From the NCBI RefSeq assembly GCF_035582795.1, contig NC_134368.1:248001-312000 (forward strand): a DNA stretch of 64,000 nt. Direction: 5' to 3'. Source of the stretch: Mycteria americana. Its lineage: Eukaryota > Chordata > Aves > Ciconiiformes > Ciconiidae. Shown piece by piece: positions 418 through 61,045 of the stretch; position 1 is the stretch's first letter; each line of letters opens with the position of its first letter. The position numbers were made by a program, and so were the translations under genes. The notes beneath the pieces are model-generated. The model was not told the DNA's origin. It searched no databases and worked only from the letters and a program-made list of their open reading frames with translations.

Positions 418-3400
418 CTTCTGGGCCTTGTACAGCACCTCCAGGATGTTGCTGAGCAGCTCAATGCAGGCATCCTCCTCCTCTCCCTTCTCAATCAGCT
501 CCTGCAGGATGGGCACTGTCGTCTGCAGCAGCAGCTCCCGGCACTCTGTTGGGGCGGACACGGAGGCGCGGGGCTGGCGGGCATACCGGCACCGCCCCGG
601 CACGGGAGAGGACGGGGCAGGAAAGGCACCAACAGGACAGACAGGACGAGCGTGACGCCTGCTCTGGGCTGCGACCCACACGCATGGAGCCGTCAACTTC
701 CTCCTTGGATGGAGCAGGGTTTTTGGAAAAACATTAAATCCTGGTGGGAAGGCTCCAACACAGAGAATTCGTTGCAGCCTGTTACACAGCTACTTATCCT
801 CTCTGCTAAAATCAACCAAACTAAAATAGAAAAGCCTCATCTGAACCTCTCCTGCTTCAGCTTCCGCCAACGGACTTTGTTCTGCTTCTCTGCTCTGTTA
901 AAGGTGCGTACGATTTAACTGAATAGATGGAGACTTTTTAAACTGGACACCGTCTCGATAAACTAGAGTCTCTAGTGCTGAAAAACCTGTGCTCTTCCTA
1001 TTACATATTACTCTGTTCCTCTGCCCAGGGCTGGTATTTGCGGCACCACGCCGCACTGCCGGTTCCACGTTGCTGCTTATCCCTACAGTGGCACTACTAA
1101 AGTGGGGGCACGGGGAAGGAAAGTGGGGGGAAAACGTTTCTCTTGTTTTCTTGCTGGCACCACCGTCTGCCATTGTGGGGTGCGGAGGAGCGGTGTCGTA
1201 CGGCCTCCCCGGGGCTGTGGGGGGGGATGTGGGGAAGGACCCAGGGTGGGCTGTGGGGAGGGACGCAGGGTGGGATGTGGGGAGGGACGCGGGGAGCGCT
1301 CGCAGGATCGCGGTGGCTCAGAGCAGAGCCGGAGCAGGCGGCAGGAGGTGACCTGCCACCCGCACTCGATGGCTTAGACACGTTCACGTTGCCAGCTCTC
1401 AAAGTCTCCACGGGCAGAGACACAAAACGGTTCCTGCTGCCTGCGGCTGAGCTGCTACCCTGCTCCCCGGACCCTTCCTGCTGCGGCTGAAGCCCAGGGC
1501 CCCTGGCCCAGCTCCCCAAGGCAGCCCACTCCCCTTCTCTTTAAAGATGCCGTGTGGGTATTTGGAAGCTCATCGCGTCTCCCCCGTGCCCTTTCCTGCC
1601 CCGAGCCCCTCAGTTGTTTCTTCCTCACCCTGTCCTCTAAGCTCTGCTTTCTTCTGGACTTCCTCCAGTTTAGCCACAAGTTTCTTGTGCCACCCAAAAC
1701 CGCGCCTGGAAGTGAGCCCAGCCGCGGCCTCGCTGACGCCGAGCAGGGTGCAGGGCGCTCGCGTGTCCGAGGGACGCTCTCCCCACGGGGGCTGCACCCC
1801 CGAGCCCCTCTGCTCCCCCAGCCCCAAACCCCTCCTGCAGCGCTGCTGCCGCCCTGGGCTCCGTCCTCTGCTCCATGATTGCTTTCACATGATTGTTTTT
1901 AACTTAAATATGGTCTATAGCTTTCAAAACCTTTTCTCCAACTTGTTGAGATTTTAAATCCTGAGTCTGTCCTCCAGCGTGCCTCCAGTCACTTCTGCCT
2001 TGCAGGGCAAAATTTACCAAGTCTACTCTTTTTTCCATCACCTAGATTACTCCTAGGAATACCAAACAGCATCAGAGTCAGGGCAGACCTGGGGAATCCT
2101 ACTCAGTACGTCCTTCCAGTCTGACAGCAAGCCCCCGACACCCCCGCCCTGAACACCACTCCTGAACCACCCTCACGCCGACTGCGTTTTGCTGCAGCTG
2201 AACCCTGTTGCCCTCTGCAGCCTGGCAGCGCTTCCGACAGCAGGAGAGCTTCACCCCGACAGCACCGGCTGGGCGACGCACGCGTCCCGCACGAGCTCGA
2301 GGGAATTGCCTCCCTCTGCAGAGCCGCCCCGGGCACGGGCCCTGTCTCAGGGGCAGAGGAGGGGTCCCCGCAGCAGGGACTCGTCCCCATCCGACACCCT
2401 GGCCGTCCCGGAGAGCTCAGCGTGGGCAGTGCTGCCAGGGCCCCCAGTGCCCCCTCTCACCGTAGGACTGGAAGACCTTGCTGTTGACGATGTCAGTCAG
2501 GGACTGCAGCTTCTGCTTCAGCAGGCGCTGGGGTGGCAGGTTCCCAATGAAGTCCCGCAGCAAGGCCCTGCCATCCAGGCGAGAGGATTTAACGAGTGTT
2601 AAATACGGCGCTTGCAAGAACCCCGCTTGTTTTGCAGTCCCGAGCACCCGCGGCCCCTTTCCTTCTGCAGGAGACAAATGCAGCAGCGGGGGGTCGGGCA
2701 CCGATTGCCCCTGTGTTTCGGTCAGGACGGGGCTGCTGGGTGGGGGGAGCCGCTCGATGGCGGCAGAGCTGTGCGGGGAGGGGCCGGGCAGGATGGTCCC
2801 ACCACACAAAGCCACGAGGCAGCCCGTGCCCACCGCAGACAGCCACGCAGAGACACCCGGCGTAAAAACTCTGCCTGAATTCCCGAAACGGACCCGGCTG
2901 GGACTGAGGGTTTCCAGGCTCAGCCCCTGCCTGAAGCACAGGCTACTGCTAAAATTGAGCAAAACCCTCCCCTGGTTTTGCACTAGGAAGGGGATAAGGA
3001 GGCAACTCCCAAGCGTCAGGAAACCCAGACCCCTCCGCCTGCCCTCGCCCTCAGCTTGACGGCATCAGCTTGCGTCCCTGCCGGCAGCTCCGGGATGGGG
3101 GTCACCGCAGGACAGGAGTGGGGACAGAGGTGGCTGCGGCAGGCGCTGCGCACGCCACAGAGCAGGGCTGGGGATGACGGGGGCAACGGGGACCCTACCC
3201 CAGCGCAGAGGAGTCGAAGATCCCAAACACGTCCTCGAGGATGGAAGGCAGGTACTTCAGGGCTGCTCCCTGCAAAGAGATGAGAGAGCTGCCTGCACCG
3301 GCCCTGCTTCGCCACGCGCCCGCGGGGCAGGATGGACGGACGGACACCGCGCGGGTAGGGAGGTGACCCCCGGCCCCTCCTGCCTCCCCCAGGTTGCGGG

Positions 3401-6400
3401 TGCTGAGCCAGCACCATCCTCGTTCAGCCCCCCCTTGTTAAAGCAGCCTGGCCCGCAGCCGCCAGCCCATCGCCCTCGCCGTCCCGGGGAAGCGGCGTCC
3501 AGCCGGGAGCAGCTCCCTCTTGCCAAGCCACCAGCGTCCAGCAAAGCACCCAGAACCACCACGGTCACGTACCTCTACTGTTGTCAATAAGAATAACTGT
3601 CTCCAGCTTTTACTTGGAAACACATAAACTCCCACAACATGACTATCAGGTACGCAGGCCCTGGCTTGCGTTGCTTGTAAAACCCTCCAGCACCGCTCAC
3701 GGCCGCCGGCAGCCACTGCTGCTGCAGCCGAGGCTGCTGGGGGAGCGGGGCTGCCCTGCACCCAGCCCGGCTCCGTGCCCTCGCTGGAAGGCTGCAAGGG
3801 TGGGGACACACGGCTATTTGTTTTTTGGAACAGCAAACACACTGACCACAAATCGTTCTGCATTAAAATCTACTTCGTTATGTTTATGATGTGACTAAGT
3901 AGCGTAAATGACTCGCCGAGTTCTGCTTAGCTTTGCCCGGTAGCTGGTCCTTCAGGCTTCCCCGGGCTTCCAATGTGCTAAAAGTGGCACCAGGGACCCT
4001 CCAGCCTCCGGGTGCAGCCGCCTGCCAGAGGTGGTCTCACACGCTTCTGCACTTCAACATCAGTTTAGGAGGTTCAATGCCTGCAGATCCACACGGGGCC
4101 GACCGCTACGCGATTCAGCTCCAGGAATTTTCACCCAGTGGTTTCGGCATCAAGTCCGTCATCTCCCTCTGAGTTGCAGTAGGCGCTTGGAAGACTGGTG
4201 CCTATTGCAAATTCACCTAGTTTTAAAAAGTGCCTGGACAAGTTCACCTAGGACACATCCCTCAGAGCACAGCGAATACAGAGATTACGGGCACAGCCTG
4301 GGCAAGTCCCTGGAGGGGTTTGCCCTGGGAGCACCCTGCAGCAGGACCGAAACCTCTGCCTGGCTCTGACCCCTTGCTGGGTGGCCGCTGCCCACGTCAC
4401 GGCAGTAACGGGCAGGGCAGACCCTCGTCCCAAGCCGGGATGGCTCCGTGAAGATCTCCAGATGCAATTAAAAACTGCGCCCCAGAGGCCCTGCCGGCCC
4501 AGAGCCGGCTCCGGCAGCGGCAGTCACCCGTCCTGCCGCCTGGCACCGCGTTCCCGGTGAGCTCGGTGAGCTCCCGCGCCCTTTGCTGGACTGGGCTCTG
4601 CCTTTGCCTGCAGCACTAAGCGATGCTCCAGTCTTCTCCCTCTGGGTTTGCAAAGACTGTGATGGAGTTCCCCAGTACCCTCTTCTAGCTGACTGAAATA
4701 GCGTTAATGTCCGTCGAACACACCAGACCCTGAGTCATTTCTGCAGCTCTTGCAAACCCTTCTCCAATACCTGTTGCAACTGAGGGCAGCAAGGCCGGGC
4801 GCATCATCCACCAACAGCCTCGTTCGCATCGTGTGCCCCTCCAGATATCTCTGTTTAACGCCTCTTTGCACGTAAATCCAGGGACTGGCTGACTTCTTGA
4901 CTGACTGCAATGACACCATGCTCGGAGCTGCCTTCGGCCGCTCGCTGCTGGCAGCTCCCAGCTCTGCTCCCAGCTGCTGCTCCGCAGCCCCGTCCCCTGC
5001 CCCGGCACCTCTCTGCCCGCAGAGCCCGGGCACGGAGCAGGGGCTTCCCCGTTATCCAGCGCCGCCGCTGCCGCCCATGCCCCCTGCACCGGCCACGGCC
5101 GCGTCTGGAGAATCAGCAAACACGCAGAGATGTCTGAGCCGAGAGCCAATTCCCCTGGGACCCAAAAGAAATGCCCATCCCAGCACGACGGTTCTCCATT
5201 TGTAATGACTTTTTTTAGAACTGAGAAGATATATGTTAGGAGATTAAAGGTAGTTATTTTAATGAACTTACACAATGCTAATTTTAAATCAGAATGCGGT
5301 ATCAAGTCAAACAGTTGTTAGTCTCGCCTATTATGTCAGTTATCTTAGTCAGTCACATTTGTAACTTCAAAAAAGTGACAGCTAAATTTGATTTTTTTTT
5401 TTTACTAAACTCCATGCTTAGTAAAGCTGGACTGATTAACATTAATTAGACTGCCACCCTTTAATTCTGAATTGATTGCATCCTCTCCATGACTGAGCCA
5501 GGATCAATGGTCAGCCTCTTTGGTCTACAGTTAGCAAGGTCATCTGATTCACTTTTTGAAAAATGAGCTAATACAGACTTTTTCCCATTCCTCAAGGATT
5601 TTTCCGGTGTTACAAGACTTCTTAAACATTGGCATCTACGTCTCAGAAAGGATTTATTCCAGAAACTGGTTCTGGCTTTTATTGTAACTGCCAAGGCAAC
5701 TGCCTGGCCTGGCAGAACTGAAAATGTCTGTCTTCCACCACTGAGGATGAGCCCCCTCTTACTGATTTTTCATGGCAAGAGTGTGTCACAGCCCGGCCAC
5801 GACGTACAAATTGTGTCCGATTTCTCCCCAGCTGCAGAACAGCAATGTTTGTTCGAACCAGCTGCCCTGCCCGTGCCGTCACTGGTGATGCTGTGGCAGC
5901 GCTGGTGGAGCTGGAGGATGGACCGCTGGCACCCACCCACCGGGTCCGGTGGGAGCGGGCAGGGAGACGACCGTCAGTGAGCCCAGTGCAGAACCGGGAC
6001 GGGCGCGGAGCCCGGTGGTCGCCAGCCTGGGGCAGGAGCCGCCTCTGGTGCGCGTGGCAGCGACCGTCACCTTTGCGCAATGCCGGTGGCAGGGTGTCCT
6101 GCAGAAACCCACCCACGTGCCAGCGGCCACAGGGGAAGAGTCTCAGCGAAGCTCCAACCATGGACACTCGTGAGCACCCCATCAGGAAAGCGCAGCCCCT
6201 GACCCGGGCTGCGAAATGCAAATGCAAACCCAAACACTCCAAGGGGCCGCGGCGGGCCGGGGCCATCTCCTCCGCTCCACCCTGCTGAGCTGCAGGTAAG
6301 CCTGGACCTAAACTGAGGAAAGATGGAGGGGAGCGGGTTGTCCCTCTCAAGGCATGAACAAGGGGAAACGTGCACCCACCACAAGCAGCGACCTGCCGCT

Positions 6401-9400
6401 GCTGCATGCCTGTGCGGGCTGTCTCCAGGCACGGGACCCAGTTTGGGTCCCCTGAAGCTCCCAGCTGCGCTGGCAGCAGCGTGATGCTCTGCTCCGCCTT
6501 GCTCAGCGCCTTGGCAGCTGGCATGAGCCCTAAGTGTTCGTTTAAGTCTGTACCCCAATCCCACCTCAAAACTCAACTTCTCTGGGTGCAGAGAAAACCA
6601 GGGCTCCAGGAGGGAAGCAGTGGGATGAGTGAAGCTCTTCTCAAGGGCCCTCTGGCTATGGCAGGGAGCAGTTGCAGCAGAAGCCCTGTCTCCTGGCTGG
6701 AGATGTGCAAGGCAGCTGCACGCAGGGAGCAGGTAGCCTTCCATCTCCTTCACATCAGGGGCACCGTCCAGGTCACAGCATTTATCGGGGATGCTGGAGG
6801 TGTTTGGCTGAAGAACAGCTCCTGCTCTCTGGCTAGGACCGTGCCATGGGTTTGTCCCTGGCCCCCAGCCTGTCTGACGCCAGTAAGCAGAGCCCAAAGA
6901 GGCTCAGCCTCCTCTCCACAGCTCCAAGTAGTCAAAATAGTACAAAACCTCCCAGCCTAAAGTAGTCCAACAGAGGACCGGCTCTCTCCACAAGAGAGGT
7001 GGCCTTTGCAGGAGTGTTGCAGCTAACAAGCTATTATCAGCTCTGCCTTGGGCTGATCAGATAATTGCAGCTTTAACGAAAAGAGTAGGCAGAACGGGAT
7101 GAAGCTGCAAAGCTTACGTCAGCCACTAAGATCTTTCGGGTATCACCTTCAGCTGCTAGACGGGAGCTGGTCGTCACAGCTAAAGATGCAGGGTGCCTGC
7201 AAGCTCTGTAAAGCAGCTACAAAGTCCACTTAGAGAACAAGAAAAAAAAGTTCTCTCCTTGGAGTACCTGCTCAAGGTGTTCAGGAGACACCGTCAGGGC
7301 TGGATATAGCACGACCCAGTGGCTGGGGTCCAGCAGGAACCAGCGCAGGATGCAGCACAAGAGCTGTGGCCAGGACACCAGGGAAGCCACGGGACCCCCC
7401 GGACGGGGGAGCAATGGGGGGGCCGGGCAGAGGCACCGGGAGCCAGGCAGCACGAGGCTGGGCACTTGGTCTGAGGCTCAGAGGAGAAGAGGATGGGACC
7501 TTGCTGGCTCACAAGCCCACAGTGGTGCTTCCCAAGGTCAGGGCCTCTTGAATAAGAAATGTCTGTATATTAAAATAATCCTGGGTGGATTTTTCTTCCA
7601 CAGATCAGTACGGCTGTTTGCAAACTTGCACAAACTTTCAGCATCCACAGCCTGCTCCGAGGAGCAGATACAGACCATCGCAAGGGGCTCGACAGCTTCA
7701 TCACACAGTAGATTAACAAGCACTGCCTTTGCCCGTTTCACAAGGTGCTCCCTCCTTCCCAAGTAGGAGAGACCTTGAGCAACCATTTCCATCCCCTACC
7801 CCCCTCCCCAGGTTGGAGGCGAATCTGCAGCTCCCTGCTCCAGCTCCCTGCTCCAGCTCCCTGCTCCAGCTCCCTGCTCGCGTCTTTTCCAGGAGGGAGG
7901 GGTCTGGTCTGGCCAGGTAGGTGATCCCACCCGAAAGGTGCCCCCTACACATGGTCACCCTTCGCTGGGGCTTTTCCAGCTCGGCCGCACACTCTGAAGC
8001 GCGGGCACCAGACACATATGCACCACGGGGACTTACGCTGCGGCAAAGGGCATTTTCTGTTTTCTTCTTGAGTCCCTTCCTGATAATTCCCAACTTTGAG
8101 AGAGCATTCCCTGATCAGCGCCAGGCACGGAGCTGACGTTGCCAGAGCACTATCCGTTATTGTCCCAGGTCTCATCTGCCAGCGCGTCAGTCAGCTTGGA
8201 GCCCATCACCGTGCATTTAAAGTTAAGGGATTTCTCACTCTTAAGACCACTTTCTGATTTTCATTTCCACAGTGAATAATTTCACCTGGGCACTCTCTCC
8301 CCCAGTGAAACACTTTGTCGGTGACATGGAAGAAGCCCTGTCACCGTAACGCCTGCGGAGCAGCAGAGCCGGCGGTGAGCACCGAGGAGGACAAGTGACG
8401 GTGAGGAGGAGACCCGGCTGACACCGTGCTCAGGGCGAGTCAACACCGTGCACTGCGATGCGGCCGAGCACAAAGCCACACGCGGAAATACCAAACACAA
8501 GCTGCATTGACAAAATTGGCAACTTTAAAGTTGGGAGGCAATGACCGAAAATGACCTGGGGGACGTCAGTGAGAAACAACCCCGATGCCTCCCCCCTCTG
8601 ATGGAACGAGCTCCCCTTTCTGCCTTCCTCCAAGGAGCCGCCACCAAGCCAGTGACCTGGTGACGAGATCTCTGAGTCCAGGTATTCGCACCCAGAAGAG
8701 ATGGGAGCAGAGGGAAAGTCTCTCTGAAGGACTGTGTCGTGCTACTGTGCAACACCAAAGCCCACTACAGACCGTGGCCCCAGCACCTAGACCTGCTCAA
8801 CACTCCAGCAATCCCCAAGGAAGAGCCTGGGGGGCTTCTAAGGGGGACATCCCCCTAAAGAGAACAGCACAAATCTGCCAGAGCTTCAATCCTTCCTGCT
8901 CTCTCTAACAAAGTAATAGCAACCAGAAAAGCTATTTTCACAGGGAAAGCTCCCGCTCAGCAGCTGGGATCCCGCTGCAGAACTCGGCCGCTTCCAGGAG
9001 AAAGCGCCGTCAGACTCAGCAAACCTGGCAGCAGCAGCAGTGGGCAAATCTCTGAGCCCCATCCCCAGCTTCCTTCAGGCTGCTCTGGGCGGAGGGCAGC
9101 TCCCGCCGAATCCTCACCCCGAACTAAGGGATCCTGCCCCAAAGCCACAGCAGCGTGACGGCACGTGAGGGAATACCGTTTTCCAGTCTGCTTTTTAACG
9201 ACATTCGGCTGTTGCGCACACCCACGGTGCCTCGAGCGCACCGGAGGAACTGCAACCGTGCTGCAACTGGAAAACTGTCCTGCTGAGACGGGCAGCCGCT
9301 GCTGGCCGCGTGACAGGGACTCAGCCGGACTCCCCCAGCACTGAGACGCCAGCCCAGCTGAGGTAACTGCAGCCTCGTCTTTTCCAATTAACGCCGTCTG

Positions 9401-10917
9401 CGGTAAGGCTGCAGCCTCAGGCGCTCCTTACCGCGCACGCGTGTCTCCCCACACCTCGGCTGGACACCCGGCACGGCTGGATCCCAGACGTGGGCTTCGT
9501 CCGCTCCTGACAGTCCTCCGCCTCCTCCCCGACACTTTCGGCAGGCGGCTGGCGGACCTGGCCCGCATCGCCTGTGCCTTGTGGCAGACCGTGCCGCGCC
9601 GTCTGTGCCTCGTGGCTATTATTTGCTATCACCACTGCTATTCCTGATCTCAGCCGCAGGGCAGCTGCAGGGACGCCTTTTCTGGTGATGCGCGGGCAGA
9701 GCTTTCCCTCTGCCCTGGACAGTGGCCCCTCTACTCTGGATGCGTTTGCAAGAATTCTTTTCTGCAGACCTGAAGACGGTGCTGAGTGATGCAGAACTCG
9801 CACAGGTGAGTGTGCAGCAGTCGGTAACACTGCAGCGACAGGTTACCATAGCACGGAGTCTCTAGAGCAACGGTATTGAGATGGAAATCAGAATAATGAT
9901 CAGTGTTTAGATGGGAGAGGGGATAAGGAGGGAGAGGCCGTCCTCCTCTCCACGAGGATAGCTCTCATGTTGGGCTTCAAACTACTTTTTTCTAAATTAG
10001 AGTAGTTTATAAGGGATTATCTAAGAACACCATGAATTAATGCAACACAGGAGCCACCGCACGTCCCAGCCTGCAGACGAGGTCCCCACCTGCACCCTGC
10101 GGTGCCTCTCCAGCTGGGAGACCGCGGGTGCAGAGTGCGGCCCTATCCTCACCCCTGGCACCGCACCAAAGTGAGACCAACTCAGCCCCGGCGCCGGCTC
10201 CTGCCTCCCCTCGCTAACCGACTTCGCAGAGTAACGTGGCTCTGTCGCGTTCTCCGTTCAGCTCCCCCCCCCAGCACCGTCACACCGGCGGCTGGAGGAC
10301 CTCGACACGGGCTGCCGGTAAAGGACACGGCTGTGCCCGCGGGGCCCACGGTGCAAAGGGCACTGTTTCCACTCCCCCCTGGCACCCCAGCCTGGTCCCG
10401 GGGTGCAGGGAGTGGGGCCAGGCCAGCTCCAGGATGGGGACGAGCCCCAGGAGCCCTCCCGAGACCCTCTGCTCCAGGCATCGGCACATGCACGGCCAGG
10501 AGAGCGTTCGCCTGAGCTGCTGACCCCAACCCACGCCGTGACCCCCAACACCAGTGCAATGCGGGGATTTGTGGTCTGGGGCCTCGGGGGGCTTTGCACC
10601 AGGGGCACAAGTCGGGGTTCCTGGGGGAGCGAGGCACCACGCAGGGTGGCAGCTCCCTTTGACGCCCTGTGCATGGGGAGGTCCGCGTGCAGGACGGCCA
10701 GCGTCCTCCCTGCACAGGCACAGCCGGTGTCACCCCCGCTGGGGCACCGTCCATCCCGCCGTGCACCAGAGCTGAGACCCCCGCAGCACCGGCCCCCCGC
10801 CGTACCTGGGAGAGCAGCGTGGGACCCTCCAGCGGGGACTTCATCAGCTGGTTCAGGGAGAGGAAGAACCGCTGCAGCGAGCGCTGGAACTCAGCCGTCT
10901 CCTTCCCCTCGTAGAGC
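418..10917 (-). CDS. DOCK2-like exons 23-26: armadillo-type repeats, gene leaves the window
   Basis: Exons: 23 (10917-10806), 24 (3269-3199), 25 (2567-2461), 26 (545-418). They encode [54 protein letters not shown] and [20 protein letters not shown], ending in [14 protein letters not shown]. The order and spacing match human DOCK2 as I recall it, before its VNRTVISMGRD-type region. Exon 24 is small and joins exon 25 through a split GGG codon. Intron 23 is 7.5 kb, the longest seen. I found no further exon in 1-417, so the remaining half (DHR-2 and tail) must lie to the left of the window. Confidence 0.85.
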
Positions 10918-13900
10918 CTGCAACAGCCAGAGTCACCACACCGTCACCACGCCGCCACCGCACCGCGCGCCTCCCCCGGGGCCTGCGGGTGTCACCTGCG
11001 ATCCCAATTAATTACGTTCCTCGGTAACCATTTTCCATAGCTGGGTGTAGCAGTGGCACGGCCACTGCCCCAGCATGGCCACTGCCTGGCGCCTGGGCCA
11101 GCCAGAAGCAACACTTCAGAAGTGCAGAATTACCAGACTGAAGACTACTGTCTGCTCTCCTACAGTATTTATATACACCGCTTATACATACTCACATATA
11201 TACTCTTTTTTTTTTTAAACAGACTCTTCTGCATGACTTCGTACGCTGAAGTCCTCTCAAAGGACATTAGTATCTTCCCACCCGAGCAGGAAACCTCCTG
11301 CGCCCTCCAGCCTGAACACGACCTGGATGACCAGTCGCAGAACAAACCGAACACACGGGGAATTTTAGCCGTGAGACGTGCAAAACTGCGAGAAAGCTTC
11401 AAAGCTGCTAATCAAATGCGTAATCATAAGAATAAAGTCGCCATATTAACTCATTGTGAAAACCGGGTGGTATTTGAGCCAATCCACCCCATCCATTGGC
11501 ACGGCGAACGGAGCAGCGAGCCCTGCTGGGGAGCGATTGCAGGTACAGACGGGAGAAATGCGGGATAAAACGCTGATCTCCCCACGGCCGCGGAGACAGA
11601 CCCGTCTTCCAGCCCGAGCTGACCCCCGCACTCCGACTGCCACCGCAGCAAGCAAACCGTGTTTGGTTCTTAATTGTGTTTTGGTTTCTAATTGTGCGTA
11701 CAGCAGCAGAACAAACGAGATCTGACAGGTTTTGCTTAACAGCTATTTTTATTGAGCCTAGTTTTTGTAAAAACTTTGCTGCTTTGTGTTGTGTAATTAC
11801 AGTTGGATAGTTCTCCTTTCAAATTCATCTTCCCTATCTGGTAAACGAGCCCAAGGGAACGTACGAGACATCGCAGGTCTGGCAGCGGTAACAAGCCTGT
11901 TGATCTGCCTGAGGCATCTCAGATGTGCTCGGACAAATGCAGCGGCTGAGCAGCGGCTGCTTTACAGCCCTTGAGCGACTTCCAAGTCAAAGCAAAGCTT
12001 AGACTAACTCAAGAAAGGTCCCTCCCTCTCATCCCCTACCTTAAAACTTACTGACCGGGGGGAGGCCCAGCAGACCCCGTCCCTGCAGCCCTGGAGCCTG
12101 GCCCAAAACCCCCTGACCAGCGGCCAGGAAATTTAAAGAAGGCTGTACGTGTTAAAATAAGCAAACGGAAATGAAGGTCCACATACAGCTTTTACTCTCA
12201 CAGCCACAATACCATGCAATGATCATGGTTCATTAGAGATTTGTTGGATTTGTCACGGTCCCTTTTTTTAATGCATCTACCCACAACCGACTGGCGTGGA
12301 TTTTCAAGCTCACCTCCACCATAAACTCTTGCCTACAAAATTCTGTATTTTTATCTTAAAGAGGGCATGCATGAATACAATATGCTATTTTAACAATTGT
12401 AAGACATATCGTCAACACAGATTTCTGACTTTTAAGTGTGTAATGACTTAAACCAGAGCAGCGTAAAGCAGTCAGAGCGTGCAGCTCAATTAAGCCAAGA
12501 TAATGGCCGATTTGCATTGCTGCAGCAGATGTGGGGCAACGCGGTCTTTAATTTATCACCGACCTATTGGTTTGGAGGATTTCATCAGGAAAACTGGCAG
12601 GCGGAGCCCAGTCCTTGAGCCCAGTGCCTCTTGGGTGTAAAGAGACCGGGCGTGCTCCTGCCTCGGTTCCTACAGCTTCGGGCTCCGGCATGCAACCAAG
12701 CTCGAGGTGCGGCACAGAAATCCCACAAGCGCCAACAGCAAAGTGGCAGGAAAAAATATCCAGCCACCAGCTCACTACGCAAATTAGTACAGACTGCGAT
12801 AAAAGCCGTGCTGAATGGGATTCACTTGGGAAGGGTCAGCGTGGCTCTCGGTAAGGGACGCCCTGCCTGCGAACCCCCGGAGCTCTTCCGCAGGAGCCTC
12901 CAACCAGATGGCGGCTGGAGCCCCGCAGCTGCGACAGCCTTTAGGGACCCCAGCAATGTCCCCGCGGGAGGGGGGCCGGCGGGGACGCTCAGCAGCTGCC
13001 GGGTCCCTGACTGCACAAGTGGCTGGCTAGAGGGTGGGGGGGGCAAGGGGCCAGTCTTCGCAGGGGCGCTGGGCTGCCCCGGGACGGGAGAGGGGACAAG
13101 CGGGGCCGTGGCGGAGCCCGCGGGTGCTGCCCGAGGGGGGGCTGGCTGCAGGAACAGGGGGACTGAGCGAGGCTGGGCGAGGGGGCTGCGAGCTGCAAAG
13201 CAGGCGGCTGCGGAGGGATGCCGGCGAGAGCAAGCGACTCCAGCTCCCCCCGTGCCAGCAGGAGAGCGGACCCCGCGCGGGGCGAGCCCCAGGGTGACGA
13301 CAAGCGCTTTCAGGAAAACTTTGCCACCCTCGGTGGCAGCCAAAAAGCAGAAGCAGCCAGAGGAACTGGCAGGGAGGAAGCAGCGAGCGGGAGACCATGT
13401 CACCGCACCATCAAAGCCCCGGGCCCCCGGCCCCCTCCCCGAGGCGACGGAGCCACGCGGGCAGGGGGGCTCCAAGGGCAGTCGGGGTTACCACGGCCAG
13501 GGCGGGAGAGGGGAGAGGTCCCCAACATCGAGAAGGGTGCGGGGAGCTTTGGGGGGCCCCGCCGGTCCCCGCGTGCCCCAGCACGGCGCGTGGGGTGCCG
13601 AAGGGAAAGGCGGCTGGAGACGTGGCACCGCGTCTCCCTGCAGAGCGAGGGCTGGGGGCGCGTTCCCGCAGGAAAGCACATTCCGGGCACAGAGCTCCCC
13701 TGGCCGCCCCAGGATCCAGCCCCTTCACAGCCCACCAGCTCCCACGCCTCCTGCCTGAGGCAGGAGGGGAATCGGGGAGCCCTTTCCCCGCACAGCGGCC
13801 ACAGAGCTGCCCAAGGTCCTCGTGCGATGAACCTCCAGCCCCGCTTCGATCATCCTCGCAGCAGCCTGGGATCCTCGTACGAGCTACTCGAGCTGCTCGG

Positions 13901-16900
13901 CTGATTCCAGCGGTACCACACGTAATCAAATAGATGCAGCAATCTGCAGTAACTTATTATAATTACAATCTAATTTCTTTAAATTATAGACTGTGTACAA
14001 ATTGTAGCACCGTTTAAAGTATTTAGAAGATCTGAGGAGTCCATGTTATTGCACTGTTAAGATCACTAAGATAAAGGGAAGATGAATAAAAACACTAAAT
14101 GTCTTCAGGGATGTCTTCATTCCAATGCAAACTAATTCACAGGGCTGTTTGCAAATGCTCCATATAATTAATTTTCTCTGCCAGAAGTTCTATAGGCTGG
14201 GGAATTTGCTCTGTATTTTCATATATGACGAGGAGGTAGATGCCTCGGTCTACCGCTGGAGCACCCCAGAGCCCTGGAGCAGCCGCCTGGCCATGAACGA
14301 GACCCTGGGAAGGGCCGGCAGGCAAAAGCGACGAGGAAGGACAGACAGCGCTTGCAGCAGCTCGCACGCCGGCAGACCTGGCGCTCTGCAGCGAGAGCTA
14401 CACGGGGAGCGCTGGCAGACAGCAAAGCGAGACAGCAAAGACAAAGTGGGGGCAAAGTGAGGTCTGAGAGCCCCTGGCGATGCTGGGAACCCAACACGGC
14501 TCCTCACCGCGAGTGGGGCACCGAGCGCCGACGGGGATGCCGACACCCGTCCTAGCACCTCTGCATGGCGCTCGAGATTCCAGGCGGAGGAGGCAGACCC
14601 TGGGCTCTTGCTCTGCTCCCTGGAAAACACCCGCCTGCCGAACCGTGGCCCCACAGCACGGGGCGACCCTGCTGCTTTTCCAGCGCAGCCTGGCGATGCC
14701 ACGTGCAGAGGGACCTCGCCTCCCGCCTCTCCTTTGGGACGCTTCAGCTTTCGGTGCCGTATACTTGGAATGAAAGAGGAACGTAACTTGCTTTTTCTGG
14801 TAACTCTGATCGGTCGTGTTTTCGATTTTCCACTTCAGCCCAGCAGCACGGCCGGGCTCACCCACGCCTGCGCAGGGCGAGGCTTGTTTGTCCCATCACG
14901 CAGATTAGGACAGGAACTTCGTGTCCACGGGGAACAAATGAAACCAGGTCCCAGGAGGACTCTGGAGGGACCCAGGGGTAACTTCGACCTTATCCTCAGC
15001 AGCAACAAGCAGCCATCGAGGCTCCCAGCTCCTTACGCTGCTTATCACAGAATCACAGAAGGGTTTGGGTAGGAAGGGTCCCTCAAAGATCATCCAGTCC
15101 CACCCCCTGCCGTGGACAGGGACATCTTCCACTAGACCAGGTTGCTCAAAGCCCCATCCAACCCAACCGTGAACACTTCCAGGGATGGGGCATCCACAGC
15201 TTCTCTGGGCAACCTGTGCCAGTGTCTCGCCACCCTCACAGCAGAGAATTTCTTCCTTATGTCCAGTCTACATCGACCCTCCTTCAGTTTAAAACCATTG
15301 CCCCTGGTCCTGTCACTACAGGCCCTGGTAAAAAGTCTCTCTCCCTTTCTTACAACCCCCTTTAGAGCTTGTGCTGAGTGGGGGGATGAGCCGCTGAGCC
15401 AGAACAAGTCGGGGGGGGCTGGCCCAGCACCCCTTCCCCAGGCCCGGGGGCAGGCACCGTGCCGCCTCTGGTTTTGTTGCGGCGCTAGGGACCCCCCGAG
15501 ACCGAATACACACTTTGCATTGGGAATTATCTGAAAGCCCAGTGACCAGCTGAAGCGTGAGAGCAGCCGTGGGCGCTGCCGGAGCCGCAGAGGTAGAGGG
15601 TGCTTCATAGGAACCCTCCGACGCCAGACTTGTGTCTGTCACCGATGTGCCGGGGGGGGTCCCTGCACAGACCCCACTGCCCAAATCGCTGTCACCACAC
15701 CCACCACCATCCACACCCGCAGCCGTCGCACCCGCTAACGGCGACGCTAGTGCCGAGCGGGGCGGCTCGCAGGTAACGCTGTCGGCAGAGCTGGAGATGC
15801 CGAGGGGCGGCACAGAGGCGGACGACAGCCTGGGGGCTGAGACGGTCTGAGCTGAGCGGAGTGCTGCTCCATAGTGAGATGAGCCTTGCTGCGGGTACGT
15901 GCAACGTTCTCCTCTCCAAGAAAAAATCCACTAAAAAGCTCCCAAACAGCACAGGGCTGGTAGGCAGAAGCTCCCTGGGAACGAGCAGGAAGAGTGAGGC
16001 TGGACGCCAGAAAACCCGTCCAGCCGCAGTGCCGGCCATGCAGGGGAGCAGGCTGCCCGGGGAAGTTTTGCCGTCTCCTTCGTGGGAGGTTTTTAAGAGC
16101 GCGTTGGAAAAACCCACGTGTCAGGGTGGCTCCGGCAGAGCTAGCCCTGCCGTGGGCAGGAGGCCACTGCAGGTCCCTCTGGCCTTGCACACGTGGGTCA
16201 GCTGTACGGAAAGGAGCTGGGCATTTCCCGACGCCACGGCACGTGGCAGTGGGAGCCGGGGCAGGGCCTGACCACACAGAGACGGGGCAAAGCTGCCGGC
16301 GTGGCGGGGAGGGAGCGTGGGCTCCATGCCAGCTGGCTGTGGCCGGGGCTCATGGGCAACCCCGTGGCTGCGGCACCAAAGCCGATCTCACCAGCACCTC
16401 GGACTGAGGCTCTCGATCAGCACACACGCAGGAGGAACCAGCAGCAATTAGCCTGACGGACAGCAAACCACGGGTTTGCTTCGTGCTAACGCCGGTGTGC
16501 ACGCACCGCCTCACCGCCAATGCACTTTGCAAACGCTGTGGAACACCGCTCGTTGGCCGGAGAGCAGTTTGTGTGACAGCACCCGTCCGGCTGCGGCCCC
16601 TCGCGCCGCAGAAGCTCTCCCGCCCCGAGACGGACGGCGCTGCCTGCCGCCCGCACCAGACCACGACCGTCAGTGACAGACACAGCAGCAACCGGAGGAC
16701 AGCGTGCAGCAGAAAATGCCGGAAACCTCAGGGAGAGGAAGCGCGGTGGTGGAGGAGAGCCTGGCTGGGGACCGGCCAACACGGCAGCACGTCACAGCGT
16801 GCCAGGAGCTGCGGGTGCCACCCCTGGGTGCTGAATCCGACCCGAGTAGCCGGCACCGGCACCAGCACCAGCGCCAGGCAGGTTGAGGTGCCAGTGCCAC

Positions 16901-41052: not shown

Positions 41053-47973
<6,921 letters not shown>

Positions 47974-50627: not shown

Positions 50628-52891
50628 ATGCTGGTGCTGGTGGGGCTGGTGCTGTGCCTCTCTCCTGCGGACGCCCTGACTGCCTTCCCCCCAAAGTGTG
50701 AGTCCTGCCCCGTCTGGGCAAAGGGGAGGCCTGGAGGGGAGACCCCCCGGGGGGGGGGGGGGCTGCAGGACCCACACAGCAGCTGGAGGGAGCAGGGAGC
50801 GCCCGCATCCCTCCGATACGGGGTGACACGAACCCGGGTCAGGGTAGCTCTTCTGGTGCGCTGGGGGTTAGAGGATGGGAATGAGAGTGATGGGGGGTGG
50901 ACACGGGGTGAGGGAGCAGGGGGATGGATGTGGGGTGAGGCAGCAGGGTGGGGATGGACATGGGGTGATGGGGCAGGGGGGATGGACGCGGGGTGCGGGA
51001 GCAGGGTGGGGACCATGGGGAAGGATGGATGTGGTGTGTCGGGACGAGGGGGCACCCAGCCCCATGGTGTTGTGGGGGACAGGCTGCCCACACCATAGCG
51101 CATCTCTGACCCGTCTCTGCCTTTCGTCTCCAGTTCAGGTGGGGAAACTGAACGGGGACATAGTGGTGAAATGCAACACCTCGGAGCAGCAAGTGACCTG
51201 GACGCAGAACGGGGAGCCGGAGCCCATGGCTGAGCTTATAGCCGAGGGACAGACTCTCACCATCCTCGGCTTGGACCTGCCGGCCACGGGCAACTACAGC
51301 TGCTGGGCCGGCACCGTCCTGCTGGACACCACCTACGTGGTGGTCAGCAGCGCCCGTACGTGGGGCCGGGCGCGAGGGGGCTGGCACGGCCGGGCAGGGG
51401 AGCCAGGGCTGAGGCAGCAGGGGGGTTATTGGGGCGGGGGGGGATGCAAGGGGCTGGGGGTAGGCTGGGGACGCTCGTGCATCTGCAGAGGTTCGTGCCC
51501 AGCCCACGGGGCTGCGGGGATGCACCGGGCAGGGCTGTGCGGGGATGGGGGCAGCCCAGCCACGGGGGCAGCCTCGCCTGTGCTGTACGTCCCGGCCCCA
51601 TGCAGCCCCTGAGCCGTTGTCCCCTGGCCCCACCAGGCAAGGAGGGGATGAACGTCTCCTGCCAGGCTGAGTCCTACCGTGGCTCCTTCCACTGCTCCTG
51701 GACCTGTCCCCACTCCACCGTCTTCCGCGCCCGCCTCACACGCAGGTGGGTGCCCCAGGGACCACCCCCCTGACCCGGCCCCGGCCCAGTGGCTGCCCAG
51801 CCCTCACGCTTTCCTCCCCCTGGCAGTGATGGCTCCTTGGGGGAGTGGGTGCCGGCGGCCAGCCACCATGGCCAGTTCAGCGCCAGCTTCACGGACCCCT
51901 CCTTCTGCCCCTTCGCCGAGGAGCTGCGCCAGCTGCAGCTGCAGCTGGAGGGGCTCTCCACCACCTCCTACCTCAACGTCTCCATCCACTTCTTCGTCCG
52001 CGACATTGGTGAGCTCAGACCAGTGGCAGCGGGGTCCAGGGGGCTTCCTCGGGGTGCCGGGGGCCCTGTGGGAGGGCTCGGCCCCAGGGCTGGGCAGCGC
52101 TGCCCTGTGCTGAGCCCTGCTCTGCCCGCAGTGCGGCCCGACCCACCGCAGGAGCTGACCGTGCAGCGGCGGGGGGAGCAGCTCCACCTGGCCTGGGCCC
52201 CCCCGGCCTCCTGGCCGCTCCCCAAGTCCTACTTTGCCCTGCTCTACCGGCTGCAGTACCAGCTCCTCAACGGCACCCAGGTAACTGCGGGATGCCCACG
52301 CCCAGCCTGCCCCTGCACGTCCCGCCCCGCGTCCTCGCTCTGCTGCGCCCACCCTGCCCCGCGCCCACCCTGCCCCAGCCCCAGCCTGGGCTCTTCCCTC
52401 TGCCCAGGGGTGCCACTGGGAACAGGCACTTGACGGGGACTCAGCAACGGCCCCCTCCCCGCTACGCTGCTTCTCTCCTTGGGGCAGTGAATTGTCACTC
52501 CTGGCTGTCACCTCTGCTTCCCCGCCCCCAGTGCTACCCACGCGAGGCAGCGTCACTGCCTGGGTTGGGGAGGTGCCCGTGTCTCCCACTCCTGAGCCCC
52601 CCGCGCCGAGCCCTGCTCCTGCCCTGTCCCACCGTCCCCGCAGCCTCGCCTCCAGCGGCGCCCATGCCGGCTGCGCCCTGCCCCGGTGCCGGGGTGCTCC
52701 CCGAGGCCACAGCCGGCCTCGCTTTGCAGGTTGACAAGTACGTGGAGGGCGCGGAGGAGACGCGGCTGCAGGAGCGGGTGCAGCGGGTGCGCATCAGCTG
52801 CCAGGACCCCTACGCCAACGCCGCCTGGAGCCCCTGGAGCGCCTGGCAGGACGTCGATGCGGCCCAGCAGCACCGGCTCCGAGCGCGCTGA
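50628..52891 (+). CDS. IL12B-like (IL-12/IL-23 p40-type) secreted cytokine subunit
   Basis: p40 proteins are secreted soluble-receptor-like subunits that pair with a four-helix cytokine chain such as p35 or p19. Exons: 50628-50697, 51134-51355, 51637-51745, 51827-52008, 52132-52280, 52730-52891. They join in phase to 297 residues; human IL12B has 328. Residues 1-16 form a signal peptide (LVLVGLVLCL). Residues 24-97 are an Ig domain (C37, W46, C80). Two fibronectin-type domains follow, with VSCQAESYRGSFHCSW (104-119), SFCPFAEE (159-166), FFVRDIVRPDPP (189-200) and WSPWSAW (277-283), the WSxWS motif. Five N-glycosylation sequons are seen (N38, N77, N103, N184, N241). The Ig domain rules out EBI3. 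The location between DQX1 and TLX2 and low identity argue against IL12B itself, so I call it a paralog. Partner and function are unknown. No AATAAA was found downstream. Confidence 0.88.
50870..51040. repeat. Degenerate GGGGATGGAC repeat in IL12B-like intron
   Basis: Four to five imperfect units of about 35-40 bases contain GGGGTGAGG/GCAGG and GGATGGA words. They lie in the intron between the signal-peptide exon and the Ig exon. Confidence 0.7.
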
Positions 52892-54080: not shown

Positions 54081-54081
54081 C

Positions 54082-54481: not shown

Positions 54482-55502
54482 TCACGGCGGGGCCAGGCAG
54501 CCCAGGCGCAGCTCTTCGCCCTCCAGCATCTCCCTGCAAGAGACAGGCCCGGGCTGAGCCCCGCGCCCCGCCCGCCCCGCCCGCCCCCCCCCCCGCGTAC
54601 CGGTACGCGGCGATCTCCGCCTCCAGCGCCATCCGCAGCCGCAGCAGCGCCGGGTACTCCCGCAGGCACCGGGCCATCTCCGCCTCCGCCTCGCCGATCT
54701 CCCGCTCCAGCTCCGCCACCCGCTCCTGCCGGCCGGGCCGTCAGCAACGCCGGGGCCTCCGGGCCGACCCCCGGCCCGCACGGACCCCGTCCCGCCCCGC
54801 ACAGATCCCGCTCCCCGGCCCCACCTGAACCCCCCTCCCCAGCCCCGGCCCGGCCCCGTCCTCCCTCACCCCCCGGACCCCTGGTCCCCCTCCCCAGCCC
54901 CGGCCCGGCCCCGTCCTCCCTCACCCCCTGGACCCCTGCCCCCTTCCCCACCCCCATCCCGGCCCCGTCCTCCCTCACCCCCCGGACCCCTGGTCCCCCT
55001 CCCCAGCCCCGGCCGGGCCCCGTCCTCCCTCACTCCCCGGACTTCTGGCCCCCCTCCCCACCTCCATCCTGGCTCCTGTCCTCCCTCACCCCCCGGACCC
55101 CTGGCCTCCCTCCCCAGCCCTCCGGGCGTCCAGGCCCCGCACCTTTCCCACCCGCGCCGGTGCCTCCCCTCCCCCCCGCCCATCCCAAGCATCCGCCCCC
55201 CTTCCCCGCAGCCCGGCCGCCTGCCCCTTCCCAAACCCAATCACCTGGGACTCCCCAATCCCCCCCCCCCCCGGCACCTCCCCATCCCCCCGCACCTGGT
55301 ACTTGGCGAGCTCCCCGCTGCGCCGGTCCCGCAGCCCCTCCAGCTGCCGGTGCAACGCGCCCACGGCCCCGCGCAGCGCCTCCACCTCGGCAGCGCGGGT
55401 GCGCAGCAGCCGCCGGTACCCGGCAGCCTCGGCACGGGCACGCAGCACCGCCTCGCCGCCGCCGCCCCACCGGGACCGGGGCCGGCCCTCGGCCGCGCTC
55501 AT
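54482..55502 (-). CDS. Short type IV (neurofilament/internexin-like) intermediate filament protein, 3 exons
   Basis: Exons 55502-55296, 54725-54601 and 54482-54533 (minus) join to 127 residues. The protein corresponds only to the end of rod coil 2[21 protein letters not shown] and [19 protein letters not shown] match the alpha-internexin/NEFL wording, and [12 protein letters not shown] then [13 protein letters not shown] (106-118) is the filament-family end-of-rod signature. The tail is only nine residues (LRLGCLAPP). The head, coil 1 and most of coil 2 are absent. Intron positions (after ...AKYQ and inside the Arg codon of AAYR) and the 125-base middle exon match neurofilament genes as I recall them, so it is not a processed copy. 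It could be a relic, a shortened functional protein, or a gene whose upstream exon I failed to see. The frame is intact with good splice sites. The lack of coil 1 argues against normal filament assembly. Confidence 0.72.
54838..55121. repeat. About 58-bp minisatellite, about 5 copies, in the short filament gene
   Basis: Units like CCGTCCTCCCTCACCCCCCG plus GACCCCTGGTCCCCCTCCCC repeat through most of intron 1. They carry no stops in several frames and give rise to spurious open frames. Confidence 0.9.
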
Positions 55503-56990: not shown

Positions 56991-59900
56991 TCACACCACG
57001 GAGGCCACCCCTGAGACGGACGTCACCTTGTTGTCCTCAGCCCAGGGCTGCAGGTTCTGCAGGGCGTAGAGGGAGGAGTTGTGCATGCAGAGCGGGTCCT
57101 GGGGCAGCGGCTGGCTCAGGCTCTTCTGGAAGGCCTCCTGCTGCAGGTGCAGCATCAGGCGGTTGGCCTGCTGGCGCTCTGCCTCGCGCTCCTCCGCCGT
57201 CTGCCTCCTGCCAGCACACACGGCCCGTCCGGCACTGCCCCGCTGCCCGCGCCTGTTGCTGCCTGCAGCCCACCCTGCTGCTGGCACCGCTGTGTGCCAG
57301 TGCGGCAATGCCCCACAGCCTCCACCCCGCAGCCTACCCTGCTGCCAGCACCACCGTGTGCCGGTGCGGCAATGCCCCGCAGCCTCCCGCTGCAGCCCAT
57401 CCTGCCGCTGGCACCGCCGTGTGCCAGTGCGGCAATGCTCCACAGCCCCATCCCTCTCGGCACCGCTGTGTGCCAGTGTGGCGATGCCCCGCAGACTCTG
57501 CCCCACAGCCCTGTCCCTCTTGGCACCACTGTGCACCGGTGCGGCAATGCCCCATCACCTCTGCCCACAGCCCATCCTGCTGCCGGCACTGCTGTGCACC
57601 GGTGCGGCAATGCCCCACAGCTTCTGCCCGGCAGCCCGTCCCTCCCTCGGCACCACCATGCCTCACCCAGCTGGGCACAGGGGATGCAGCGGGGGTAGGC
57701 ACCCCATCTCACCCCGGCCCAGCCCCTCCTGGGGGGCACAGCCGCGGTGGGGAGTGGGTGCCAGAGAGAGGCAGGGGGTCGGAGCTGTGGGGGCTGTGGC
57801 AGCCGCCCCGGGGCTGGCCCCGTTACCTCCACTTGGTGCGGCGGTTCTGGAACCAGGTCTTGACCTGGGCGTCCGTCATCTTGAGGGCCTTGGCCAGGGT
57901 GGCACGCTCGGCCGAGGCCAGGTACTTCTGGCGGTGGAAGCGCTTCTCCAGCTCGCAGATCTGCACCCGGCTGAAGGAGGTGCGTGGCTTCTTCCGCTTG
58001 GGCGGTGTGCGGTTCTGGTAGGGGTGCCCGATCCGCCGGGTCGCCGCGAAGGGTGACAGCGCGGCTGCGGGCAGAGGCAGGGTGAGGGGCTGCTCGGCGG
58101 AGCGCCCTGCCCATCGCTGCCGCCGCACGGGCAAGGGCTGGGCAAGGGGCAAGGGCTGGGCAAGGGGCAAGGGGTGGGCAGAGCCCCTGCTGAGGGCAGG
58201 GCAGGAGTGGGCGTAGCCCGGGCAGCGTGGGAGCCCGGGGGGGGGGGGATGCTCGGATTCTCAGGGCCGTGGGGGCAGGGAGCTCCGGGAGGACAGGGAG
58301 CTCCGGGGGGGCCAGCAGCGCTGCCTGGCAGAGAGGAGGAGAGGAGGAGACCCTGAGTCATCCCCACCCGCTCCCACAGCCCAGGGACGCGCAGGGCAGC
58401 TCAAGAGGTGGCGGGAGGGTCCATCCCCGCCCCACGGCCATGGCCCGATCGCTCCCCCAGCCCGGCGGGTGGGGACCGGGGCCGGCAGGGGGGCTGGGCA
58501 GGCCCGGTCCCAGGGCCAGTGCAGGGCCGACGAGGCTCCCGGCAGCACAAACCCACCCTTCCCCGCGCAGCGAGCCCTGCCGCAGCCCCAGAGGAGCCTC
58601 CGCGGCGCTGCCGGGCTTCCCAGCCCTCCCAGGGAGGGGACAGGACCCCAGAAGCCGTTGGGAGGCGGCCGACGTCTCCCTCCGCGCGCCAGCAGCGTCC
58701 GAGCGCCGGGGGCCAGGGAAGGGGCTGTCCTCGCATGGCCAGGGCGTGAGCCGGGGATGGCGAGGCCGGCACGCTGCGTCCCAGCCCCAGACGCAGCCGG
58801 AGCCAGAGCCATGGGGAGCGTCAGGGCAGCGAAGGGGCGTGGAGGAAGGCGAGAGCTGGGCCCGGGTGCAGCACCCAGCTCCCACTCCCCTCCTGCTCTG
58901 CTGGCGGCCCACGGCTGAGCCACGGCCCCACGGCCCTCGCCATCGCCGGCACCACGCAGGCAGGGCTGCGCGTGGCCGGGCCCATGGGGCTGCCGTGGGG
59001 CCCCAGCACCCCATGCCCGTGGGGGCGTGGGGCAGACCCCACGGCAGCCCCGGGGACAGCCTGGCGCCCGGCAGACACTCCCCGCGAGGCCGGAGCCTCC
59101 CTCCTGCCAGCGCCCAGGCAGGCAGCGCGGGCAGGAGGCCAGCCTGCCCGCCGGCGGGGGCGGACGCGGTTGATGCAGGTGGAGCCGCGCAGTCGGGGGG
59201 ACGGAGGCCCTCGCGCCCCCTCCCCACGCGGGGCGGCCCCTCGCCGGGAACAGATGCCGACAGCCCGCAGACCACCCCAAGGCCGGCGGTGCTGAGTGAT
59301 GGCCGCGGCTGGGAGACCCCGTGCCGGGGAGGGGCCGCCCCGTCCACCCACTGCTGGCGCCAGGCAGGAGACGGGGACGTCACCTGCCGCCCCTGCGCGG
59401 GGACGATGCTTCGTCACCGCTGGGATGGCGGGGTGGGCCAGGAGGTGAACCGGGCTCTGCTGGTGCCCGGGCTGGACCCCGCAGCCCCCGGCCTCCCGCC
59501 CTGCATGGCCCCAGCAGCCCCCATAGCCAGCGCCTGGCCCCCAGCCCCGTGCGGCCCCCAGCCTCGTCCCCGCATGGAGCTGTGCGCTGCGGACGTGGCA
59601 GCGCCGCCATCTTGGGAAGGAGCCGAGCTGAGCCGAGCCAGGCCAGAGCTCCCCAGCACCTGCATGCGCCCGGCACCTAGCACCCCAAACGCAGCACCCC
59701 ACACCTTCTCCTCTGGGACGCAGCGACCGGCATCCATGCCCCAGCTCTGGGTGCTCCAGCCCCCACCACGGGCGCTCAGCCCCCGGCCCCGTCGGCAGCA
59801 CCGGGACCCCGCACCGCCTCCCCAACACCCCCATCACCACCCGTCCTCCCCAGCCCTGGCATGCACCAGCCCCAGCCTCTCCCACGGCGCCGGGACCTCG

Positions 59901-61045
59901 TGCCCTGCGCTCATCCCCACACACGCGGGTCTCCGAGTCCCACCCCTAGGTGCCCCATGGCCGGGCCCCACAGGCACCCCCCCACCGCCTGTCCCCGTCC
60001 CCAGGGGAGCACGGGACAGGGGCACCCGCTCCCCGCGCCCAGCCCCGCACGCAGACGGGTTTTGCCCTGCAGCCCCACGGCGGGTCCCTGCCACCCCCCG
60101 CTGCCCTCACCCCGCGCCCCGGCTCCCCGCGCCCCACAGCCCCCAGCAACCTTCCCGTCACGCGTGGGACGGAGCCGGCACCCGGCGCCCCCGGGCCCAG
60201 GGACGGCGCAGGACAGGACACGGAGCGGAGCGCGAGGCCGGAGCACGGCGGGACCCCTCGGGCGCCGCTCGCAGCCGGACCCCGGCCCGACCCCTGCCCG
60301 GAGCCGCCGGGAGCCGGAGCGGGACCGCGGCGGAGCTACCGGTGGCTGCGCCAGCCCCAGCCGCTCTCCGCGGGCCCCGACGGCGGCCGCTTCCCGCGGC
60401 GGCGAGTGCCCGGCCCGGGGCACGGAGCGGGGCGGGGGCGGGGCGGGGCGGGCGGCGGGCGAGGACCCCGCGCTGCCGGAACCGGCGGAGCGGACGGCCC
60501 CCGGCCAAGCCCGGCCGGTCCCCGCGGGCGGCGCGGCGCCGGTCTGCGCCCGCCCCGACCGCGCTCCGCACCGGCCGCGGGAGCCGCGGGAGCCGCGGGA
60601 GCCGCCGGAGCCGTCGGGAGCCGTCGGCGGGCAGCCCGCGGCGCTCACCTGAGAGCCGGTCCTTGGCGATGCGGCGCGTCGTCTCCATCCAGGGGAAGGT
60701 GAGCCCCGAGAGCCCGGGCACCGGCGGCGGCGCGGCGGGCGGCGCGGCGGGCGCCGGCCGGTGCGCCGGGACGCGGATGACCCCGGCGGGCGGCGCGGCG
60801 GGCGCGGGGGTCACGTTGACGCTCACGTTCATGCTCATGTTGAGGTTGTAGGAGCCGAGCGAGCAGGCGGGGCCGTAGCCGCCGCCGTAGAGCCCGTAGT
60901 CGGGCTCCCCCGCCGCCCGGGCCGGCCCCGCGCCGCCGCCCGCGGGCTCGGGGCCGCCGAGGATCTGGTCGATGCCGAAGCTGATGGGCTCGTGGGGCGG
61001 GGGGCCCTGGCCGCCGCCCTCCCGCGCCAGCGCCGCCGCCTCCAT
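56991..61045 (-). CDS. TLX2: TLX2 homeobox transcription factor (3 exons)
   Basis: TLX2 (HOX11L1) is a nuclear homeodomain factor of neural-crest and enteric neuron development. Exons 61045-60649, 58064-57827 and 57207-56991 (minus) join in phase to 283 residues; human TLX2 has 284. Residues 18-29 ([12 protein letters not shown]) are the TLX N-terminal motif with an Eh1-like Groucho-binding core (23-29). FPWM (117-120) is the hexapeptide-like PBX contact. [20 protein letters not shown] precedes the homeodomain (about 156-215), which has [12 protein letters not shown] with the TLX-specific Thr at homeodomain position 47. The C-terminus [20 protein letters not shown] is TLX2-type rather than TLX1 or TLX3. 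Synteny with DQX1 agrees. The start is the only ATG preceding the HEPISF motif. I saw no poly(A) signal close downstream. Confidence 0.96.
57262..57665. repeat. About 61-bp minisatellite in TLX2 intron 2, about 6 copies
   Basis: Units share GGCACCGCTGTGTGCCAGTG and CGGCAATGCCCCACAGCC with variation in length. The array lies between the homeodomain exon and the last exon. Confidence 0.93.
58128..58180. repeat. 17-bp tandem repeat in TLX2 intron 1, 3 copies
   Basis: GGGCAAGGGGCAAGGGCT-like units are repeated in tandem just upstream of exon 2. Confidence 0.85.
58181..60648 (-). other. TLX2 intron 1
   Basis: This is the main part of a 2.6 kb GC-rich intron. It contains a stop-poor open frame on the plus strand with no recognisable domain. 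A CpG-dense part (about 60.2-60.65 kb) adjoins exon 1. Confidence 0.7.

Follow-up and report, generated by a model that had tools for sequence, protein, structure and literature searches.

A DOCK-A gene, a second p40-type gene and a partial filament gene at the Tlx2 locus of Mycteria americana: probable survivors of an early-vertebrate duplicated region

The paralogous regions that carry the Lbx and Tlx genes were described in 2008 (Wotton 2008; PMC2446394) and, in the available parts of that paper, the Lbx1/Tlx1 locus is paired with the locus on 8p and the Lbx2/Tlx2 locus with that of Tlx3. The order at human 2p13 is given there as LBX2-PCGF1-TLX2-DQX1-AUP1-HTRA (printed HTRA1)-LOXL3-DOK1, while DOCK2 is placed solely with Tlx3, and the genes listed at Lbx2/Tlx2 include no DOCK, p40 or filament member. 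In chicken, Aup1-Htra2-Loxl3 are assigned to chromosome 4, and so are the Lbx2/Tlx2 signature genes (PMC2446394). Here we describe a 64,000-nucleotide stretch of Mycteria americana DNA (NC_134368.1, termed C4 below; C4:248001-312000), called the window throughout, from an assembly of 1.348 Gb in 279 contigs. It holds the first part of a DOCK-A gene, an IL12B (p40)-like gene and a partial gene for a type IV intermediate filament, set among the genes of the 2p13 block.

Gene content was established by tblastn, with human proteins as baits, over the window and 150 kb around it. The order obtained on C4 is LOXL3-HTRA2-AUP1-[DOCK]-DQX1-[p40]-[neurofilament]-TLX2-PCGF1-LBX2, in which LOXL3, HTRA2, AUP1, DQX1, TLX2, PCGF1 and LBX2 follow the same sequence as in the published human locus. 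Compared with that order, DOCK is additional between AUP1 and DQX1, and p40 and the filament gene are additional between DQX1 and TLX2. Because the orders match, the window can be read as the 2p13 block with three added genes. The other three paralogous regions were located in the same assembly, their gene labels being inferred from match strength: C6 carries DOCK1 (3.34-3.44 Mb), DHX32 (4.03-4.05 Mb), INA (15.2 Mb), TLX1 (15.93 Mb) and a homeobox at 15.96 Mb, taken for LBX1 by its position alone; C8 carries IL12B (13.73 Mb), DOCK2 (18.83-18.91 Mb) and TLX3 (19.83 Mb); and C23 carries DOCK5 (4.63-4.65 Mb), NEFM (4.75 Mb) and NEFL (4.76 Mb). NEFH lies apart from the four regions, on C13. DOCK-A loci are thus found on C6, C8, C23 and C4, and the block, its four-region structure and the pairing of its loci agree with those reported, as far as the parts of that source at hand extend (PMC2446394). 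The original prediction, that the DOCK-A, DHX32/DQX1, IL12B, type IV filament and TLX families meet in the window and trace to four regions on human 10q, 8p, 5q and 2p13, is borne out: all five are present, and the counterparts on C6, C23, C8 and C4 have the expected members. That the window holds the only DOCK2 or the only IL12B of this genome was ruled out by the separate loci of both on C8.

In our view it is highly probable that the three additional genes are ohnologs of the two early-vertebrate genome duplications (2R), retained in the bird and lost in human. An ancestral segment would have carried DOCK-A, DHX32/DQX1, p40, type IV filament, TLX and LBX genes; 2R would have produced four copies of it, each of which then lost different genes, and the window would represent, in the bird, that quarter of the paralogon which contains Lbx2/Tlx2 (human 2p13). 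On this fourth copy, DOCK-A would have survived whole, the p40-type gene intact and the neurofilament gene in part; the human lineage would have dropped all three. That an ohnolog is kept in one lineage and lost in another is well known. The support is strong for DOCK and moderate for p40, and for the filament gene it rests on position and introns. We infer that p40 and the filament gene share the age of DOCK and that the loss took place on the mammal side; for human, the loss is read from the gene order in the available part of the published account (PMC2446394).

A fourth DOCK-A gene nearest to DOCK2

DOCK1, DOCK2 and DOCK5 are Rac guanine nucleotide exchange factors (GEFs) of the DOCK-A group, and the window gene encodes the same protein exon by exon, as a fourth member, nearest to DOCK2, at a place where the published human order has no DOCK. 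It was found with human DOCK1 and DOCK2 as tblastn baits and lies on the minus strand, its first part at 406..37836 of the window and the remainder continuing below it to C4:203646 (aligned part C4 203.6-285.8 kb). Exon 1 (37836-37795) is followed by a splice donor, and further exons reach down to 546-406. The exons cover 1564 of the 1618 query residues in order (alignments of at least 24 bits), stop codons are limited to three intron-bridging alignments, and splice sites are visible beside most exons, the flanks having been viewed by eye rather than each site individually. The gene is therefore complete, with its exons in order and open. Concerning the span of 418..61045 proposed for the whole group, position 61045 is indeed the start codon of TLX2, while 418 falls inside a DOCK exon and the window contains just the first part of that gene.

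Over 624 aligned residues the window gene is 72% identical to human DOCK1, 69% to DOCK2 and 67% to DOCK5, with the human-bird pairs themselves at 94% (DOCK1 and C6, 569 sites), 87% (DOCK2 and C8, 537 sites) and 82% (DOCK5 and C23, 639 sites); the alignments retained had at least 28 bits and at least 38% identity (30% for DOCK3/4-type exons). Against solved structures in the PDB, the C-terminal part, which lies outside the window, scored 1007 bits with DOCK2 and 944 bits with DOCK5. The unrooted tree of seven DOCK-A sequences from human and this assembly is ((DOCK1,C6),(DOCK5,C23),((DOCK2,C8),window)), the window gene standing beside the human and bird DOCK2 pair with a support of 99.5/100. Seven topologies were compared by the approximately unbiased (AU) test. 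Placing the window gene as sister to one DOCK2 gave p = 6.8e-6 for the bird sequence alone and 8.8e-8 for the human one alone; joining it to the DOCK1 pair or to the DOCK5 pair gave 2.8e-4 each, and joining it to bird DOCK1 alone or bird DOCK5 alone gave 5.9e-4 and 8e-106, respectively. The tree and the first of these values rule out a recent duplicate of DOCK2. Of the 67 positions that distinguish human from bird DOCK2, the window gene carries the human residue at 15 and the bird residue at 20, and of the 32 such positions of DOCK1 it carries the human residue at 13 and the bird one at 10. These data argue strongly for a DOCK lineage distinct from DOCK1, DOCK2 and DOCK5 and older than the split of birds and mammals.

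As to function, the NGIVDPAVMGG segment of DHR-2, the nucleotide-sensing site of DOCK proteins, is conserved in the portion of the gene that lies outside the window. Since this segment is retained, the product is predicted to be, and likely is, a Rac GEF. The unrooted order of the tree also pairs 10q with 8p and 5q with 2p13, which is the pairing of loci stated in the accessible part of the 2008 account (PMC2446394). Three minor features were seen in introns of the gene. At about 34900-36200, GC-rich repeats in the first intron generate very long spurious open reading frames (ORFs) on both strands; an open frame of 120 residues without a Pfam match lies at 22792-23151 on the opposite strand; and an intron of about 31 kb, outside the window, separates neighbouring aligned exons from C4:214295 to C4:245248.

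The p40-like gene and the type IV filament gene

The p40-like gene occupies 50628..52891 on the plus strand. Its six exons, with joins read by eye, comprise the leader (50628-50697), the immunoglobulin (Ig) domain (51134-51355), domain D2 (51637-51745 and 51827-52008) and domain D3 (52132-52280 and 52730-52891, stop included). All joins are GT-AG and keep the frame, and the gene is intact through to its stop codon. The layout is that of a hydrophobic leader, MLVLVGLVLCLSPADA (recognized by eye), an Ig domain, two cytokine-receptor-type domains and the motif WSPWS. The Pfam model IL12p40_C matches at 42.3 bits (cut-off 25) and, among solved structures, a 195-residue part finds IL12B best, with an E-value of about 1e-21 against 3e-10 for IL-27 beta. 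In common with IL12B, the gene thus has the IL12p40_C domain, an Ig and fibronectin-type layout and a WSxWS-type motif. It also shares the three intron donors compared, from the Ig exon to the second D2 exon, with the bird's own IL12B (phase 1 at the end of the Ig exon, phase 2 after the first D2 exon and phase 1 after the second). It differs from IL12B in sequence, being 32% identical to the bird protein (205 sites) and 29% to the human one (211 sites), with bird and human IL12B at 46% (239 sites), and in having no cysteines aligned to those of human VTC and VEC. A cysteine at SFCP does align with that of human SACP, the residue that links p40 to p35. Because of the hydrophobic leader, the Ig domain, WSPWS and this cysteine, the product is predicted to be a secreted cytokine subunit, which we consider likely, and it could pair with an alpha chain through the retained candidate linking cysteine.

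In a tree with EBI3 and CNTFR as outgroup, bird and mammal IL12B form a group that leaves out the window gene (95.7/82). Joining the window gene to the mammal IL12B pair is rejected by the AU test (0.003) and not by the Shimodaira-Hasegawa (SH) test (0.14), and the same holds for joining it to EBI3 (AU 0.009, SH 0.11). Of the 104 positions that distinguish human from bird IL12B, the window gene has the human residue at 16 and the bird residue at 19. The tree favours, with moderate strength, a p40-like gene that would predate the bird-mammal split. An early branch is also reported in fish, where carp p40c splits off before p40a and p40b, but p40c of carp and grass carp is described as lacking the p35-linking cysteine, whereas the window gene keeps a cysteine aligned to it (in the portions available among PMC4929537, PMC2946394 and PMC8481787). 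Elsewhere in the assembly, a sub-threshold IL12p40_C match (E 0.39, 21.4 bits) at C5:70069049-70069111 (L012) is possibly part of another cytokine-receptor-type gene.

The filament gene lies on the minus strand at 54482..55502 (aligned part C4 302.5-303.5 kb) and consists of three exons (55502-55296, 54725-54601 and 54533-54482) with a coding capacity of 127 residues; the ATG lies at 55502 and the stop at 54482. The Pfam model Filament (PF00038) matches with 88 bits over positions 210-313 of 313 alone, corresponding to the C-terminal third of the rod. A six-frame scan of 214 kb for the coil 1A motif gave no score above 24, and a complete coil 1A-2B rod is absent from that interval. The original prediction of DOCK and neurofilament-like genes is thus correct as to their presence, the filament gene being partial. 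Introns follow YQ and AAYR. Among the bird's own genes, INA and NEFH have the donor after YQ, and NEFL, NEFM, INA and NEFH have the second intron; the three type III genes examined have no intron at YQ. By these intron positions the window gene is of type IV structure. It shares them and the rod end with INA, NEFL, NEFM and NEFH but differs from these in that no head, coil 1A or coil 1B was found (coil 1A scanned over the 214 kb) and in its nearly missing tail. Judged from its sequence, it is either a remnant or a gene for a very short protein. In the first case, DOCK and p40 would be ancient ohnologs and the filament fragment a decayed pseudogene, which is compatible with retention of all three genes from 2R and to which we give an even chance. 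Decay would account for the unmatched coil 1A, for the missing model positions 1-209 and for an identity of only 42-51% to the other eight filament sequences compared, although the three exons are in frame with their splice sites, the rod end is conserved, and both a stop codon and an ATG starting the surviving part are in place. Just upstream of the filament exon, at 55610-55702, ARAGORN called a tRNA-Gly (ccc) in very GC-rich sequence, probably a spurious call.

Competing origins and significance

One competing account of the block's origin, which we consider improbable, has DOCK2, IL12B and either INA or a neurofilament gene copied within birds or reptiles, the copies then inserting fortuitously into the Tlx2 block and diverging rapidly. 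It would be consistent with the long branches of the window p40 and filament genes and with the p40 topology that groups the window gene with bird IL12B, which the AU test leaves standing. For DOCK, however, the corresponding topology is the one rejected by the AU test, and neither DOCK nor p40 has a clear surplus of sites shared with bird DOCK2 or IL12B. Moreover, three separate insertions into one block already paralogous to the sources would be needed, and the introns are kept in DOCK, p40 and the filament gene. Because all three retain introns, they are not retrocopies, and retroposition is ruled out.

Several results nevertheless weigh against the retention of 2R ohnologs. For p40, the topology with bird IL12B is 7.3 log units worse yet unrejected (AU 0.135); a recent bird duplicate is excluded for DOCK and disfavoured for p40. 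The filament tree did not resolve, the fragment being too short with two thirds of the rod missing. For DOCK, the SH test does not reject joining the window gene to the DOCK1 pair or to the DOCK5 pair (p = 0.179), and of the 106 positions that distinguish human from bird DOCK5, the window gene carries the human residue at 46 and the bird residue at 14, a sign of a fast-evolving or imperfectly stitched bird DOCK5 sequence. An outgroup of DOCK3/DOCK4-type exons roots the tree next to the two DOCK2 sequences, but the support is weak (51.9/57); for this reason the rooted order is not settled, while the unrooted one is. Finally, the comparison covers this one vertebrate genome and individual mammal sequences. 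Retention of 2R ohnologs in the bird, as originally proposed, is supported by the collinearity, the four-region distribution and the DOCK tree, with DOCK2 and IL12B both present as separate loci.

An assembly misjoin, by which the block would come from another chromosome or its genes would have been brought together by the assembler, is very unlikely: the block is GC-rich and no more than 0.35 Mb away from the C4 start, but the 214 kb around the window contain no N, the genes stand in the human 2p13 order, and chicken Aup1-Htra2-Loxl3 are already placed on chromosome 4 in the accessible part of the 2008 paper (PMC2446394).

The second p40 is, in our estimation, the most interesting part of the finding. 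A bird p40 or DOCK duplicate at the Tlx2 locus is not named in the titles and abstract openings listed by searches of open-licence papers, a scope mostly outside subscription journals, and annotation databases may already carry these genes under '-like' names. It is possible, although we hold it rather doubtful, that birds (perhaps sauropsids or all non-mammals) have a working second p40 which would join p35, p19 or another alpha chain into IL-12-family cytokines unmatched in mammals, and that they also have a functional fourth DOCK-A Rac GEF, with p40 and DOCK each a 2R ohnolog; a filament protein of 127 residues with coil 2 only may be a third survivor. With the window gene, a gap in the paralogon would be filled and DOCK-A would become a full quartet, whose unrooted tree pairs the four loci as published. 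The position of the second p40 suggests that the fish-specific duplication was preceded by more than one p40 gene, a point relevant to how fish p40a, b and c arose. More generally, a family of three in human can have a fourth ohnolog concealed at a GC-rich chromosome end.

Other genes of the block

Within the window, DQX1 (DHX32/DQX1 family) is located at 41050..47892 on the plus strand, with an approximate 5' end (C4 about 289.1-295.9 kb; aligned at 41200-47892 by tblastn with DHX15). It has a DEAQ box instead of DEAH and is placed between AUP1 and TLX2, and its nearest other relative is the gene at C6:4.03-4.05 Mb, taken as DHX32. TLX2 lies at 57000..61045 on the minus strand (C4 305.0-309.0 kb, aligned part), with exon 1 at about 61045-60653, the homeodomain exon at about 58035-57826 and the last exon at about 57209-57000; it has an ATG at 61045, the TLX homeodomain and the TLX N-terminal motif, and stands beside PCGF1 and LBX2. 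Both identities come from motif, position and match strength. A fourth TLX, corresponding to the lost Tlx4, was not seen, both TLX exons occurring at three loci only (150 of the 185 candidates scored).

The aligned parts of the remaining genes on C4, all from tblastn, are LOXL3 at 171.6-173.7 kb (plus strand), HTRA2 at 176.6-185.2 kb (minus), AUP1 at 185.9-194.4 kb (plus), p40-like at 298.6-300.9 kb (plus) and PCGF1 at 322.3-325.5 kb (plus), and the LBX homeobox (LBX2) was found at 345.5 kb (plus). FGF- or NPM-type neighbours, as at the teleost Tlx2 locus, were absent at E 0.01 with FGF8 and NPM1 baits in the 214 kb and in 50 kb at the chromosome tip. Seven long ORFs showed no convincing Pfam family, one of them having merely a sub-threshold match. 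C4 is 92.9 Mb long with the window close to one end, and GC content per 4-kb step ranges from 0.56 in its initial portion to 0.80 at its end. Farther along C4, near 21.13-21.16 Mb, there are DHX15-type exons, their identity assumed from the match, which fit the reported linkage of the Tlx2 block with the cluster on human chromosome 4.

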